Both the position numbers and the translations under genes were made by a program. Positions 5,676-11,126 of a stretch of DNA of 64,000 nucleotides are shown piece by piece (positions within the stretch are counted from its first letter, which is position 1; each line of letters begins with the position of its first letter). Origin of the DNA: Sneathiella sp. HT1-7 (GTDB taxonomy: Bacteria; Pseudomonadota; Alphaproteobacteria; Sneathiellales; Sneathiellaceae). The DNA lies in assembly GCF_020731145.1 (NCBI RefSeq), contig NZ_JAJFZN010000001.1, positions 372,001-436,000 on the forward strand. Direction: 5' to 3'. The notes beneath the pieces were generated by a model that ran no database searches, was not told the DNA's origin, and was given only the letters and a program-made list of their open reading frames with translations.

Positions 5676-6449
5676 TTAGTCTTCGGGCAATTGTACGACA
5701 ATAAAGAGACGGGAAAATGGATACAGGGTCGAATCATCCTGACTGACAGGATAGGAATCCAGAAGCATTTCGGCATACTGGCTTTCGAACAACTCTGCTT
5801 CTTCTGTGCCCAGAGCCGCGAGGAATGGTCGAAGCGCGGTGCCCCTTGTCCATTCCAGAACGGCGTCCTTACCTTTCAGGACCTGAAAGTAGGTAGTCTC
5901 CCAGATATTGACTTTTTCTGCCAGTGGCGACAATAGATCGAAATACCAGTTGATGTTGTGTACCGGTGCGGGCCGAACCAGATGCCCCAGCCTGTCGATC
6001 CATTCCGGGGACTGGGCGAGATCATACAAATTCTGATGAGACGGGGCGGAAAAGTTATTCGGCATCTGCACGGCCAGCACACCACCTGGGCGCAGTTGCT
6101 TCAGAAGGTTGGGAAATAGATTTTCATGATCGTCCAGCCAGTGAAGTGCCGCATTGCTGAAGATCAGATTACCCTTGCTGGTCGGGGAAAATCGACCGAT
6201 GTCCGTGAGCTTCCATTCGATGGACGGGTGATCGCGACGTGCCTTGGCGAGCATTTCCTCGGAACTGTCGATGCCGGTAATAATCGACTCATTCCAATGT
6301 TGCGAGAGGAGCGCCGTGACATTTCCCGTACCACAACCAAGATCATAGATAACGGAAGGCGAAATAAGCGGCACCTGCGACAACAGATCCAGCGCTGGAC
6401 GCAGCCGATGATCGGAGAAAAGAGTATATTGTTCCGGGTTCCATGCCAT
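5676..6449 (-). CDS. tam: trans-aconitate 2-methyltransferase
   Basis: SAM-dependent enzyme that methylates trans-aconitate, a by-product that inhibits aconitase. The 257-residue protein starts MAWNPEQYTLFSDHRLRPA, typical of Tam, followed by the SAM-binding motif I (YDLGCGTGNVT) and FSNAALHWLDDH. AAGGAGG precedes the ATG by 10 bases. It is convergent with ggt: the two stop codons are adjacent, with no terminator between them. Cytoplasmic single-gene unit as far as can be seen. Confidence 0.92.
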   Translation of the reverse strand: MAWNPEQYTLFSDHRLRPALDLLSQVPLISPSVIYDLGCGTGNVTALLSQHWNESIITGIDSSEEMLAKARRDHPSIEWKLTDIGRFSPTSKGNLIFSNAALHWLDDHENLFPNLLKQLRPGGVLAVQMPNNFSAPSHQNLYDLAQSPEWIDRLGHLVRPAPVHNINWYFDLLSPLAEKVNIWETTYFQVLKGKDAVLEWTRGTALRPFLAALGTEEAELFESQYAEMLLDSYPVSQDDSTLYPFSRLFIVVQLPED

Positions 6450-6990: not shown

Positions 6991-8382
6991 TTAATCAGGT
7001 ATTTCGATGCAAAAAATTGTGCCCGAGCTACCGGTCCGCTCAAGCGTGACCTCTCCACCATGAGCAACAATTAGCTCGCGCGCGATGGAAAGGCCGAGCC
7101 CTGTGCCGCCTGCACGCGCGGAACCAGAGAAGGGTTCGAACAAATGCTCCCTCGCCTTTGCATGCAAGCCCGGTCCAGAATCGCATATTCGGATCAAGGT
7201 CCGCGAACCCGCGCGCAAGGCGTGGATATCAATGGTGCCATCCCCCTCCATCGCTTGCACCGCATTCCGGCAGAGATTGAGCAGGATCCGATAGAACTGG
7301 TCGCGATCAGCGTTCAACATTAACCCCGCCGGAATTTTATTCCGCCAAGTAATGCCATTATTTTCCCGCAGCCCCACAGATGTTTTTACCTCATTCACCA
7401 GTGGCTCCAAAAGGAACCGCTCTTTTTTTGGCTCCTGCTCATCGGCCCGGCCGTACTTTAAAGTCTGCGTACAAAGATCTATCGCCCGATCAATACTTGT
7501 CATCAACCGGGGAACCACCTTCTGCACTTTCGGGTCCTTCACCTCGGACAGACTGTCACTGACAATCTGGGAGGTGGAGAGGATGTTTCGAAGGTCATGG
7601 CTAATCTTGGTGACGGCTGTACCAAGCGCGACAAGATGTTGCTTCTGCTTCAGGGCCGCCCGAAGGCGCGTCTGCATGATTTCAAGTTCGTGCTCGGCAA
7701 CACCGATTTCATCGCGCCGACCGGAGGGGACAACGGCAGTACTGATATCTTCCGGTGCGCGGCGAAAGGCGATCATACTTTCGCTTAAACGTCGCATCGG
7801 TCGCACCATAAGCCAATGAAGCGTCAAATAGACAAGGATTGCCGTCAGGGTCGAGATAATCAGGGACAACCAGAAAATATTCCATGCATAATCATACATG
7901 GCATCTATCAGGGGAGCCTCGTCAATAACCACTTCTAGCATGGAATTTGGCTCGTTCTCGATCGGGCTGATAATCCGGATTATCCGCCCCGGCCCGACCA
8001 TCAGGCTCATAAACGCATGCTCGATCAGGGTAAATGGGCTTTGGTGGGCGAGATCGAATTCCGCATCGATGGCGGGCGGCATATTCTCACTCAGGATCAG
8101 GAGCCGCGAATTCGCGCCATGCAGCACAACACTTCGGGCGCCGACACGGAACAGTAATTCCTCCCGCAGTTCCTCAGACACCATATTATCTGGCGACGCC
8201 AGCAGTGAAAGGGTTGCGAGATGGGCAAAGTCTGTTTTCTTGACGAGGTAGTTCAGCCGAAAAAAGGCGATGGACGGCACGAAAATCAAAACTTCTGCCA
8301 GCATGACAAAAACAAGCGTCAAGATCAGCAGCCGCGCGGAGAGACTGCGGAAGGGCGCAACTATTTTTCGCAATAAAGCCAT
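6991..8382 (-). CDS. orphan HAMP-domain sensor histidine kinase
   Basis: A 463-residue inner-membrane kinase. Transmembrane helices at about 18-42 and 168-190 flank a periplasmic sensor of roughly 125 residues with no recognised fold. A HAMP linker (about 190-240) leads to the HisKA helix with the phospho-accepting His262 (KISHDLRN), and the ATPase domain has an intact N box (LLNLCRNAVQAM), G1 (DSGPGL) and G2 (GGTGLGLSIA). It should therefore be active. No response regulator gene is adjacent, so its partner is unknown. The gene starts 15 bases after the U-tract of an intrinsic terminator, so its own promoter is not obvious; an attenuated read-through transcript is possible. Confidence 0.92.
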   Translation of the reverse strand: MALLRKIVAPFRSLSARLLILTLVFVMLAEVLIFVPSIAFFRLNYLVKKTDFAHLATLSLLASPDNMVSEELREELLFRVGARSVVLHGANSRLLILSENMPPAIDAEFDLAHQSPFTLIEHAFMSLMVGPGRIIRIISPIENEPNSMLEVVIDEAPLIDAMYDYAWNIFWLSLIISTLTAILVYLTLHWLMVRPMRRLSESMIAFRRAPEDISTAVVPSGRRDEIGVAEHELEIMQTRLRAALKQKQHLVALGTAVTKISHDLRNILSTSQIVSDSLSEVKDPKVQKVVPRLMTSIDRAIDLCTQTLKYGRADEQEPKKERFLLEPLVNEVKTSVGLRENNGITWRNKIPAGLMLNADRDQFYRILLNLCRNAVQAMEGDGTIDIHALRAGSRTLIRICDSGPGLHAKAREHLFEPFSGSARAGGTGLGLSIARELIVAHGGEVTLERTGSSGTIFCIEIPD

Positions 8383-8394
8383 TCTTCAGAATAG

Positions 8395-8434
8395 ATCAAA
8401 AAAGTGGGCCGGTATCAACTTAATGATACCGGCC
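8395..8434 (-). terminator. intrinsic terminator of the Cys-rich gene, directly ahead of the kinase
   Basis: A perfect 11-bp stem (GGCCGGTATCA, 6-base loop, TGATACCGGCC, 8407-8434) is followed on the minus strand by CCCAC-free T-run TTTTTT (8403-8398). It closes the transcript of the Cys-rich gene but lies only 15 bases before the kinase ATG, so it may act as an attenuator for the kinase. Confidence 0.9.
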
Positions 8435-8482: not shown

Positions 8483-8731
8483 TTAGCTCTTTTTGGCAGC
8501 GCATGGATTAGCCTTGCAGGGGTTACAAGGATTACAGGTCTTTTTCGCAGCGCAAGGGTTGCACGGGTTACAAGCTTTCTTTGCGGCGCAAGGGTTACAG
8601 GGATTGCAGGCCTTCTTAGCGGCGCAGGCGTTACACGCTTTTTTCGGTGCACAGCCGGCCATTGCAGTTGGCATTGCCGCAGTTGCAGCCATAGAGGCGA
8701 TCGCGGCGGCGGTTAATACTTCCTTGAACAT
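8483..8731 (-). CDS. small secreted cysteine-repeat protein (CNPCNPC type), possible metal binder
   Basis: An 82-residue protein with a clear signal peptide (MFKEVLTAAAIASM..., cleavage near TAMA-GC) and a mature part made almost wholly of Cys, Asn, Pro, Ala and Lys. It holds 13 cysteines, none in the signal peptide, mostly in repeats of AAKKACNPCNPC. There are no His, acidic or aromatic residues after cleavage. The composition suggests a periplasmic thiol-rich, metal-chelating or redox-buffering peptide, resembling metallothionein in principle only; no family function is known to me. AGGAGAG precedes the ATG. Upstream lies a mercuric-reductase-like gene, downstream a terminator and an orphan kinase, which is compatible with a metal or thiol stress role (inference). 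Distinct from the DUF2282 bufferins. Confidence 0.85.
   Translation of the reverse strand: MFKEVLTAAAIASMAATAAMPTAMAGCAPKKACNACAAKKACNPCNPCAAKKACNPCNPCAAKKTCNPCNPCKANPCAAKKS
8516..8623 (-). repeat. three tandem 36-bp units coding AAKK(A/T)CNPCNPC
   Basis: Residues 37-72 of the Cys-rich protein are three back-to-back 12-residue units, AAKKACNPCNPC, AAKKACNPCNPC and AAKKTCNPCNPC. Codons vary between units at third positions, so the repeats are kept at the protein level rather than being a fresh DNA duplication. Degenerate partial units flank the array on both sides. Confidence 0.9.
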
Positions 8732-8763
8732 AAGTCTCTCCTGTTAATTTCTGATATCCCGTC

Positions 8764-8841
8764 AAGCAATTATTGCTTAACGGAACAATGCCTCTTTTGA
8801 GGCTGGATTCCGAATCAACTGCGATAACGAACGCGTTATCG
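8764..8841. other. three short hairpins between the flavoprotein and the Cys-rich gene
   Basis: AAGCAAT/ATTGCTT (8764-8778), GCCTC-TTTT-GAGGC (8790-8803) and CGATAACG-AACG-CGTTATCG (8822-8841). The last begins 7 bases after the stop of the flavoprotein gene. None has a proper U-tract. They could weaken read-through from the flavoprotein gene, stabilise its 3' end, or act in the leader of the Cys-rich gene. Confidence 0.4.
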
Positions 8842-8847
8842 AAAAGG

Positions 8848-10278
8848 CTATCCAAAGAAAGAGAGAAACTTCACCACCGCGCGGGTGCGAGAACTGAAAA
8901 GGCTGGGTGTATAGTAGCTACCCGCTGCCCGTTTGCTGATTTCACCGAGTGTGGGATAAGGCGCTATATAGCTCGCCATTGTCCCAATTTTGAGCTTCCC
9001 GGTGATCGCGACGCCCCAGGGATGAATCAACTCGCCCGCATGTGGGCCAACGATACCTGCACCCAATATACGCCCTTTATCAGTGGTAATCGCCTTGATC
9101 ATACCGTCCGTTTGCCGTTCCGCCCTTGCCCGATCGATATCAGCAAAAGGAAAGGAGAGGACTTTTATCTTATCCCCGTATTGTTCGCGCGCAGCATCTT
9201 CACTCAGGCCGACATTGGCTAGCTCCGGATCGGTAAAGGTGACCCAGGGCACAGCACTGTAATCGACCTTTGCAGGAAGACGGAAGAGCGCGTTTCGAAT
9301 AAAGATTCCGGCGTGATACCCGGCTATGTGAGTGAACTGATAGCTACCGGCGGCATCGCCAATGGCATAGATCTTCTTATTTGTACTGCGCAGGCGAGAA
9401 TCAACAGTTACACCTTTGGGGGAGTATTCCACACCTGCTGCCTCAAGATTAAGGCCTTCAACATTTGCCTTGCGCCCGGCGGCGACAAGCAAATGCGATC
9501 CGACCAGCACTTCCGCCGATGAGTCTTCACCCAGTGAGACCTGATAGGCACCGCCCGCATCTTTTTTTACGTCGGATATTTTTACTCCTTCACGAATATC
9601 GACCCCTTCCTCCCGGAGGGTTTTAAGGACGACAGCGCTTAAACCAGGATCATCCCGGCCGAATGCCTTGAACGCCTCTAGCACTGTTACTTTCGACCCG
9701 AGCCGGGCGTGAGCCTGCGCCATTTCAAGGCCGATCGGCCCGCCACCAATAACGATCAGGTGATCAGGTTGCACACGATTTTCAAAAATCGTTTCATTAG
9801 TCAGATATCCGGCGTCTTCCAGGCCCGGGATGGGTGGGGCCGTCGCGCTCGATCCTGTTGCAATCACAAAACGGCGGGCAGTTACCCGCGTATCGCCAAC
9901 TTCGAGTTCATTTTCTGAAACAAAACGGCCATAGCCCTGAATCACCTCAACGCCCAGCTCTTCGAAACGCTCAACCGAATCATGGGGTGCGATAGACCCA
10001 ATAACCTCCTGTACATGATCCATGACTTTCGGAAAATCAACGCTTGGCGCCTGTCCTGTTATACCGAAGTCGCTGGCATTCTTCAGGCACGACGCCTTTT
10101 TTGCCGCAGCGATCAGCGCCTTTGACGGGACACAGCCGTAGTTCAGGCAATCGCCGCCCATCTTGCTCCCTTCGATAAGAACTGTTTTCGCCCCCATCTG
10201 GCTCGCGCCTGCTGCAACAGAAAGACCGCCAGAACCGCCGCCAATCACACAAATATCTGTCTTGACCTGGTTTGCCAT
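8848..10278 (-). CDS. FAD-dependent pyridine nucleotide-disulfide oxidoreductase (mercuric-reductase-like)
   Basis: A 476-residue flavoprotein of the lipoamide dehydrogenase/mercuric reductase family. FAD-binding GGGSGGLSVAAGA is at the N-terminus, the redox-active disulfide is Cys44/Cys49 in CLNYGCVPSK, the second Rossmann motif GGGPIGLEMAQAHARLG binds NAD(P)H, and the interface domain closes the protein. It lacks both the N-terminal heavy-metal domain and the C-terminal vicinal cysteines of true mercuric reductase, and no mer genes are near, so mercury reduction is doubtful. It is not beside a 2-oxoacid dehydrogenase complex either. AGGAG lies 7 bases before the ATG. It is 11 bp behind a TVP38-type membrane protein gene, a pairing seen in other bacteria. 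Confidence 0.9.
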   Translation of the reverse strand: MANQVKTDICVIGGGSGGLSVAAGASQMGAKTVLIEGSKMGGDCLNYGCVPSKALIAAAKKASCLKNASDFGITGQAPSVDFPKVMDHVQEVIGSIAPHDSVERFEELGVEVIQGYGRFVSENELEVGDTRVTARRFVIATGSSATAPPIPGLEDAGYLTNETIFENRVQPDHLIVIGGGPIGLEMAQAHARLGSKVTVLEAFKAFGRDDPGLSAVVLKTLREEGVDIREGVKISDVKKDAGGAYQVSLGEDSSAEVLVGSHLLVAAGRKANVEGLNLEAAGVEYSPKGVTVDSRLRSTNKKIYAIGDAAGSYQFTHIAGYHAGIFIRNALFRLPAKVDYSAVPWVTFTDPELANVGLSEDAAREQYGDKIKVLSFPFADIDRARAERQTDGMIKAITTDKGRILGAGIVGPHAGELIHPWGVAITGKLKIGTMASYIAPYPTLGEISKRAAGSYYTPSLFSSRTRAVVKFLSFFG

Positions 10279-10289
10279 AAGGAATGCTC

Positions 10290-11126
10290 CTACGCTTTAT
10301 TTCGGAATTTCTTCAGGACGATCGGCAAAAGAGCAATGACACCAAGCGCAAAGAATGAAAATAGTATCTCCGTCGTCACAAGGGACGTAATCTGGAAATC
10401 CAGCACGCAACCGCTCTGCCCACTATCCATGCAAGCCTGATACTTGGCTTGCTGTTCACGAATAATACTGTCGAGCCCCCCGCCAAGAAAGGCAAAGACA
10501 AAGGTTCCCGGAACGATGCCGATAAATGTCCCAATGATGTAGGTGCTGAGTTTCACCCCCAAAAACGCTGGCGCGATATTGACGAGCCAAAACGGAAATA
10601 ACGGAACCAAACGCAGGAACAACAAATAGCTGAGTGCGTTTTCTGCAAACCCGTCTTCGAGCTTTTTCAGTTTCGGACCCGCTTTCTTGCGAAGAGGTTC
10701 ACCAAGGGAAGTTGCCGCGATCAGGAACAGGAGTGTCGCACCGAAGGTCGCCGCAAAAACTGTCATGAATCCCGCAGCAACCCATCCGAAGAGAAACCCG
10801 CCGGTTACTGTCATCAGTAAGCCGCCCGGTAGCGAGAATGCAACAACGACAATGTAGAGCCCCATATAGAGAAGCGCAGCCAGCAGGAAATTTGCCGATA
10901 CAAAATCAATCAAGCGGTCGCGATTATCGCTGAGCGCCCGGAACGTCAGATAATCATCAAGGCCCAGAATAAAAAATGTACCAATGGCCACCGCAATGAG
11001 CAGCAACGGCAACATTTTCTTGAGAGAGAAGCCATTCCCGCCGTCACCGTTTTGATCCGTGGCCTTACCCATGGCTGATTCGCCCCCTGCCCGCGCTACC
11101 GGCATCTGTTTGTCGAAACCTAACAT
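10290..11126 (-). CDS. TVP38/TMEM64 family membrane protein (DedA/VTT domain)
   Basis: A 278-residue inner-membrane protein. After a hydrophilic leader of about 35 residues come several hydrophobic helices with VTT-family marks: FSLPGGLLMTVTGGFLFG, FLIAATSLGEPL and LFLRLVPLFPFWLVN followed by FIGIVPGTFVF. Proteins of this superfamily have been linked to lipid scrambling and membrane homeostasis; the role of this one is not known. AGGAGG sits 5 bases ahead of ATG 11126, which decides the start. It is the promoter-proximal gene of a unit with the mercuric-reductase-like flavoprotein. Three copies of a GAAACT-type sequence lie upstream at 11196-11231. Confidence 0.9.
   Translation of the reverse strand: MLGFDKQMPVARAGGESAMGKATDQNGDGGNGFSLKKMLPLLLIAVAIGTFFILGLDDYLTFRALSDNRDRLIDFVSANFLLAALLYMGLYIVVVAFSLPGGLLMTVTGGFLFGWVAAGFMTVFAATFGATLLFLIAATSLGEPLRKKAGPKLKKLEDGFAENALSYLLFLRLVPLFPFWLVNIAPAFLGVKLSTYIIGTFIGIVPGTFVFAFLGGGLDSIIREQQAKYQACMDSGQSGCVLDFQITSLVTTEILFSFFALGVIALLPIVLKKFRNKA

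Follow-up and report, generated by a model that had tools for sequence, protein, structure and literature searches.

Metallothioneins and Csp-type Cu(I) storage proteins are small proteins with many closely spaced cysteines, and the Csp proteins are helical bundles. Cysteine-rich peptides that leave the cytosol are described, in the main text of a survey of MNIO enzymes, as bufferins or oxazolins: they are modified by MNIO enzymes, which act with DUF2063 partners, they are exported by Sec, and their cysteine-derived thiooxazoles hold copper (PMC12452194). The same text reports a few fusions of the order Buf1, Cytochrom_C, FGE-sulfatase and presents bona fide FGE relatives as copper enzymes; DUF6969 and P460 are mentioned nowhere in it (PMC12452194). 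Proteins of the cytochrome P460/cytochrome c'-beta superfamily (PF16694) are the subject of a review whose main text does not use the words "repeat" or "fusion" (PMC11928373).

The window analysed here, a stretch of 64,000 nucleotides from Sneathiella sp. HT1-7, harbors a gene with an ATG start codon for a small cysteine-repeat peptide (Table 1). A preliminary description had seen in it a tiny exported protein built of CNPCNPC repeats, and this was confirmed for the ORF of 82 aa, with the signal peptide judged by eye. The N-terminus was that of a typical signal peptide, clear by eye in all nine close sequences, with an AxA cleavage site before G26 and a lipobox-like MAGC as an alternative (also by eye). 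Within positions 8651-8731, the first cysteine after the signal peptide fits a lipobox-like MAGC, VAAC or LAAC across the close orthologues, as judged by eye, so that lipidation of the peptide is possible.

The mature peptide (residues 26-82, after AMA) has 57 residues (A14 C13 K11 P8 N8 G1 T1 S1). The 13 cysteines and the lack of His, acidic and aromatic residues agreed with the earlier count, and large hydrophobic residues are also missing. Three units of 12 residues, described before, begin at residues 41, 53 and 65 in the middle of the peptide. At the core of each unit is CNPCNPC, with the same residues throughout and only synonymous differences in the DNA. When the peptide was shuffled 100,000 times, one CNPCNPC appeared in 20 shuffles and two appeared in none. 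Compared to eight close orthologues, the mature part had 0.46-0.99 differences per synonymous site and 0.007-0.12 per non-synonymous site. The synonymous-only changes in the cores and the low non-synonymous divergence support the earlier view that selection acts on the peptide and, as judged from these sequence comparisons, the gene is under strong purifying selection. The nearest relatives were mostly from Sneathiella genomes, and a plasmid search gave no match.

The ribosome-binding site and a terminator of its own had been listed, together with the signal peptide, as marks of a gene, and both were conserved (Table 1). The alignment used for ribosome site, terminator and palindrome comprised eight loci including the window; a ninth locus, L021, was left out, and its ribosome site is CTGGAGG, unlike AGGAG. 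All eight close orthologues adjoin the same oxidoreductase and histidine kinase genes. Since the kinase gene lies past the terminator, it is probably transcribed separately from the peptide gene. The arms of the palindrome between oxidoreductase and peptide gene were conserved in all eight aligned loci, and the centre was changed in L013. With up to one mismatch allowed, the genome has no second copy of this palindrome, a possible operator or RNA hairpin. With up to two allowed, it was not found in L021, L025, L052 and L065, which have the gene order in common with the window. Its uniqueness ruled out an operator common to the four places in the genome where members of the system described below are found. 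In L025, the CNPC gene is directly followed by a cupredoxin gene, within the window-type TVP38-oxidoreductase gene order.

We also considered that the frame could be a low-complexity artefact, possibly a collagen-like gene read on the opposite strand. An antisense ORF of 84 aa (8493-8747, + strand) is indeed open across the same bases, and the DNA pattern does lie antisense to other genes in two further genomes, G132 and G344. However, selection acts on the CNPC frame of the window, ribosome site and terminator are conserved on that strand, the signal peptide is conserved, and the frame is fused in phase to a recognised domain in relatives. An artefact is thus extremely improbable.

Table 1. 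Features at the locus of the CNPC-repeat peptide (positions in the window).
Feature	Positions	Strand	Basis or remark
Sensor histidine kinase gene, recurrent neighbour	6991..8382	-	Downstream, past the terminator
Intrinsic terminator of the peptide gene	8407..8434	-	11-pair stem and T-run; kept in 8/8 aligned loci
Gene of the small, apparently exported CNPC-repeat peptide, 82 aa	8483..8731	-	ORF, relatives, purifying selection
Three 12-residue units with one CNPCNPC each, residues 41-76	8504..8611	-	Orthologue comparison
Signal peptide, residues 1-25 (MFKEVLTAAAIASMAATAAMPTAMA)	8657..8731	-	Judged by eye, including orthologues
Ribosome-binding site AGGAG	8738..8742	-	Kept in 8/8 aligned loci
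Palindrome CGATAACG-N4-CGTTATCG	8822..8841	.	Between oxidoreductase stop and peptide gene
Pyridine nucleotide-disulphide oxidoreductase gene, MerA/lipoamide dehydrogenase-like	8848..10278	-	Upstream, same strand; below the NCBIfam cut-offs shown
TVP38/VTT-domain membrane protein gene	10290..11126	-	PF09335; upstream, same strand

Searches with the peptide returned only zf-CXXC below the cut-off (E 1.6) from Pfam and nothing from NCBIfam, and no metallothionein family of either collection matched up to E 10. The peptide resembles metallothioneins and Csp-type proteins in its small size and its many closely spaced cysteines, but differs from them by its apparent export, by the CNPCNPC repeat and by the link to a haem c paralogue. 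It is not a metallothionein with a family model, and it may work like a metallothionein or a bufferin. With the bufferins, the CNPC peptides share that they are small, cysteine-rich and apparently exported, are sometimes fused to larger domains, and are linked to a conserved, presumably cytosolic protein. Unlike the bufferins, the CNPC peptide has no DUF2282 match, no EGKCG motif and no MNIO enzyme in its genome, and DUF6969 is found in place of MNIO and DUF2063. The earlier statements that the peptide is distinct from the DUF2282 bufferins and has no DUF692-type enzyme next to it could be extended: the MNIO family (PF05114) had no match throughout the 99.96% complete genome, with control searches positive in Caulobacter vibrioides and Deinobacterium chartae. 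On the basis of the MNIO and DUF2282 (Buf1) features alone, the window peptide is not classed as a bufferin.

A single scan, with one genome per species, gave 189 relatives of the window peptide, which ruled out a lone orphan gene. We analysed 77 loci from the best 80 of these 189 matches; the scan was seeded with CNPC motifs, and the counts for the 77 loci therefore favour such motifs. By their labels, 63 loci are from Alphaproteobacteria, 11 merely from Proteobacteria and three from Gammaproteobacteria (L026, L053 and L054). The search for homologues and gene neighbours that the preliminary description had suggested thus showed that the cysteine motif and its spacing are kept and that partner genes recur. 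ORFs were predicted with a script that takes the longest frame, so that starts are approximate and some ORFs are false; export was judged by eye throughout.

Two forms recur in the family: the peptide is either small and stands alone, or it is part of a long protein that has a haem c domain. This domain is of the cytochrome P460 type in alphaproteobacteria, whereas the gammaproteobacterial long forms match SoxA-TsdA_cyt-c (PF21342; L026 and L053) or CCP_MauG (L054). As in the P460/cytochrome c'-beta superfamily, the C-terminal domain of the long alphaproteobacterial forms has one CxxCH (49 of 49 P460-type tails, some of which score below the Pfam cut-off). Unlike cytochrome P460, these proteins have roughly 100-600 residues, mostly cysteine repeats, ahead of the domain. 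PF16694 was matched by the long paralogue of the window genome at 35.3 and 37 bits (cut-off 27) and by L095 at 35 bits; L090 and L093 scored just under the cut-off. Across 101 family ORFs, which were themselves chosen by such motifs, CNP-C accounted for 1430 of the 1615 CxxC steps; CGAC, CSPC and CGPC variants also occur. Haem binding by the repeats was ruled out, with a His after just three of the 1615 CxxC steps in the repeat regions. A segment shared ahead of the repeats was sought as well, and the loose motif NP...LA.C, present in 12 of 46 long proteins and 4 of 50 small ones, was too weak to count as a recognition sequence.

Among the long forms, the ORF at L071 has 59 cysteines. At L055 (3401-5725), a CNPC-type protein of 774 residues has 110 cysteines and a CxxCH tail that aligns with the P460 tails; a P460 match in Pfam was sought at E 0.001 and not found. 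At L095 (4308-5210), the CNPC repeats sit within the P460 domain and not ahead of it, and might be close to the haem there.

The neighbouring ORFs of the 77 loci were clustered, and one or more members per cluster were tested against known families. The most frequent partners were DUF6969 (PF22308) at 32 loci and an FGE-sulfatase-like protein (PF03781) at 26 loci, followed by a cupredoxin-fold protein at 11, a YeeE/YedE-type transporter (PF04143) at nine and DUF302 at seven. At 40 of the 77 loci, at least one of DUF6969, FGE-like protein and cupredoxin was present. Adjacent DUF6969 and FGE-like genes on the same strand were found at 14 loci and overlapped by 4 bases in five of them, and at 10 loci a CNPC gene stands immediately ahead of DUF6969, with both genes in one orientation. 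Within the window's genus, two further genomes (L089 and L090) have the genes for YeeE/YedE, cupredoxin, CNPC protein and DUF6969 in a one-strand row, and their YeeE/YedE proteins both belong to PF04143. The FGE-like protein and the cupredoxin look exported, whereas DUF6969 has no evident signal peptide (by eye). In species other than that of the window, the gene contexts hence indicate a link of the family to the FGE-sulfatase-like protein and the YeeE/YedE transporter.

Some further neighbours were observed. A cluster of SelR-domain (MsrB-type) genes occurs at five CNPC loci (the L044 member, 727-1125, was tested), and another SelR-domain gene (L120:4058-4456) lies near the cupredoxin gene of the window genome. 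An ORF of 398 codons is located between the FGE-like and CNPC genes at L017 (3997-5190) and L038 (3758-4951); the L017 protein is a PLP enzyme of the PALP family. A nuclease-like cluster is present at nine loci; its SNase label is weak, since two of 137 proteins reached E 1e-5 and the L017 member was unmatched. The tally of neighbour families covered 137 of the 184 listed neighbours, and among the 25 commonest of its 83 Pfam families no metal-resistance family was recognised beyond two plastocyanin/azurin-type proteins.

We then compared the presence of these genes across 387 alphaproteobacterial genomes. The CNPCNPC DNA pattern was present in 35 genomes, DUF6969 in 96 and both in 31 (p=6e-17). 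The pattern matches in G132 and G344 (L094 and L121-L123) were antisense readings of collagen-like or similar genes, which shows that searches for the DNA pattern can yield false matches. Once these matches were excluded from the family, 33 genomes with true CNPCNPC proteins were left, of which 31 have DUF6969. The two exceptions are G106 (93% complete) and G250 (91% complete), which have genuine CNPC proteins and no DUF6969 match. The distance from CNPC gene to DUF6969 was measured in 24 of the 31 genomes and was at most 6 kb in 20. The DNA motif of the FGE-like protein was found in 30 of the 387 genomes, all of them DUF6969-positive. It missed an FGE-like fragment in G106, where the ORF runs into the contig end, and G106 is therefore a real exception to the pairing of FGE-like protein and DUF6969. 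The cupredoxin was present in 28 of the 387 genomes, 26 of which have DUF6969.

Because the genomes are related and not independent, the co-occurrence p-values overstate the association. More solid evidence comes from the shared gene rows and from the window's genus, where CNPC protein, DUF6969 and cupredoxin were present in five of six genomes and all three were absent from the sixth (G033). The window genome has one of each at four separate places: the peptide, one CNPC-P460 protein of 357 aa on contig C4 (L086:6597-7670) whose C-terminal part is Cytochrome_P460 (PF16694), one cupredoxin at C1:100.6 kb and one DUF6969 on C7. An FGE-like protein was matched in this genome neither by the DNA motif nor by a protein search, the latter run without a positive control. 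The sequences thus show a selected cysteine-repeat polypeptide, its P460 paralogue in the same genome and a genomic link to DUF6969 and the cupredoxin.

The exact CNPCNPC pattern was absent from 65 DUF6969-positive genomes. We read 20 of them, hand-picked mostly from the top of the list, with a filter of at least 7 Cys and more than 6% Cys. Another cysteine-repeat protein was present at the locus in six: a CGAC type (L102), NPC types (L103, L104, L105 and L107) and an EGCC type (L112). At the other 14 loci, no repeat-like ORF within about 5 kb passed the filter. We concluded that DUF6969 is linked to cysteine-repeat proteins generally, but not in every genome. The L112 peptide (5679-5975) is of the type EGCCAAEGC, directly adjoins DUF6969 and has no CNPC motif and no match in Pfam or NCBIfam.

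These observations point to the peptide as part of an apparently undescribed multi-gene system for handling thiols or metals and not as a lone oddity, since partners recur and co-occur with the family and the window genome has four genes of the set. In the open-licence PMC literature, no relevant paper was found on a CNPCNPC-type motif or on DUF6969/PF22308. The general idea of the preliminary description, a real, selected and apparently exported cysteine-repeat peptide, was upheld; the haem c fusions and the partner genes had been missed.

The partner proteins were examined for conserved residues and fold, with broken or overlong ORFs left out of the alignments. In DUF6969, 40 columns were invariant in 30 aligned sequences (of 33). 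They are rich in His and acidic residues, include H74, D79, D82, H92, H94, E98, H101, H103, H136 and E161, and resemble, as we infer from the alignment, those of a metal-dependent enzyme. A search with the DUF6969 model (pLDDT 88.5) against solved structures gave nothing convincing (best Foldseek E 0.14, best Z 3.6), so that no chemistry can be read from the model. The model of the small partner (pLDDT 86.8) predicts a cupredoxin fold, like that of the N-terminal domain of EfeO (Z 10.6), nitrosocyanin (9.3) and FtrB (9.3). Unlike these proteins, it has no Pfam family above the cut-off. Cys 42, 62 and 149 were invariant in 12 aligned sequences (of 13).

The FGE-like partner matches the domain of the FGE/sulfatase-modifying factor superfamily (PF03781, E 3.1e-34 for the L019 protein). 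Its invariant GGSWDD-GCG-C segment, seen in 23 aligned sequences (of 26), lies near the C-terminal end. The catalytic, copper-binding Cys pair of FGE is wider-spaced than CxxC, and the partner differs from FGE in this invariant CxxC (C260, C263). Its profile is nearest to ToxD, CalU17, SUMF2 and OvsA, with ToxD and CalU17 as the nearest solved relatives, and true FGE ranks lower.

The layout of the loci, an apparently exported Cys peptide with a conserved, presumably cytosolic protein, is that of bufferins; MNIO is absent from the window genome, and DUF6969 can be read in its place. By this reading, DUF6969, with or without the FGE-like protein, would modify the side chains of the cysteines, either ahead of export or following it, in the way that MNIO and DUF2063 modify bufferins. 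It is consistent with the near-constant presence of DUF6969 in genomes with genuine CNPCNPC proteins, its adjacency and overlap with the FGE-like gene, its invariant core, its position next to the differently built repeats of L102 and L112, the invariant segment of the FGE-like protein, and the Buf1, Cytochrom_C, FGE-sulfatase fusions in the main text of the MNIO survey (PMC12452194). On the other side, no solved structure fits the DUF6969 model with confidence, the FGE-like profile is not nearest to true FGE, the FGE-like protein was found in the window genome neither by motif nor by protein search, only the FGE-like protein and not DUF6969 looks exported, and no CNPC protein was seen in many DUF6969 genomes. 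Such a maturation is possible but doubtful. The same degree of doubt applies to a broader proposal, in which the CNPC peptides and proteins would form a new class, matured by an enzyme and exported. The dedicated cytosolic enzyme, for maturation or metal loading, would be DUF6969, joined in many species by the exported FGE-like protein, and together with the cupredoxin and the haem protein of the P460 type the set would form an MNIO-independent counterpart of the bufferins across many families of Alphaproteobacteria.

The transporter genes at nine loci and in the two genomes of the window's genus raise a different function. The thiols of the peptide might take up sulfane or thiosulfate-derived sulfur in the periplasm and pass it to or from YeeE/YedE and a cytochrome of the SoxA/TsdA or P460 type. 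The PF21342 matches of L026 and L053 fit to this, but L054 matches CCP_MauG and the alphaproteobacterial long forms are of the P460 type. Moreover, the transporter is a minority partner that scores below the NCBIfam cut-offs for TsuA and YedE, and the many-Cys repeat is unlike SoxY, which carries a single swinging-arm Cys. We consider a sulfur carrier unlikely.

A buffer for oxidants was weighed as well, in which the CxxC pairs would scavenge hypohalous acids or peroxides by switching between the thiol and the disulphide state. The repeated CxPC pairs, the disulphide oxidoreductase gene that adjoins the peptide gene in the window, and the SelR-type methionine sulfoxide reductase genes mentioned above argue for it. 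But a signal peptide is evident in the peptide and not in the oxidoreductase, and TVP38 and oxidoreductase are found together in one branch only, at 10 of the 77 loci. This function appears improbable.

A thiol-rich periplasmic buffer for metal or oxidants is the simplest reading of the peptide. We favour, with a probability of roughly 40%, that it is the small stand-alone form of an exported CNPC-repeat family in a multi-gene periplasmic system that would hold a soft metal, e.g., Cu(I). After leaving the cytosol via Sec, the peptide would act as a polythiolate store or shuttle, with a soft metal ion, most likely Cu(I), held by its close-set CxxC thiols. In the long form, such a store would be placed beside the haem c, and the cupredoxin would exchange metal or electrons with it. 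Before export, loading, protection or maturation of the peptides would fall to DUF6969, assumed to be cytosolic. Cu(I) is suggested by the chemistry of the repeat, by the cupredoxin and by the FGE-like partner with its copper-enzyme relatives.

The metal-holding system is favoured because Cys motif and spacing are kept, partners recur, DUF6969 co-occurs and the genes stand in common rows. It is weakened by the neighbour tally, which shows no metal-resistance signal beyond the two plastocyanin/azurin-type proteins, and by the YeeE/YedE transporter and SoxA/TsdA-like domain, which indicate sulfur, and SelR (MsrB), which indicates oxidants, equally with metal. It is also weakened because the window peptide lies separate from its putative partners and adjoins a disulphide oxidoreductase, and because G106 and G250 have no DUF6969 match and many DUF6969 genomes show no CNPC repeat peptide.

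What appears to be new is a system around an apparently exported, Cys-rich peptide, which has a set of partners of its own. P460-type haem c proteins bear dozens of cysteines in this family, 59 in L071 and 110 in L055, where the tail aligns and has no Pfam match. If the link is functional, the uncharacterised DUF6969 would gain a partner and a testable job, and a second pathway tied to an enzyme, besides that of MNIO, would exist for exported Cys-rich peptides.
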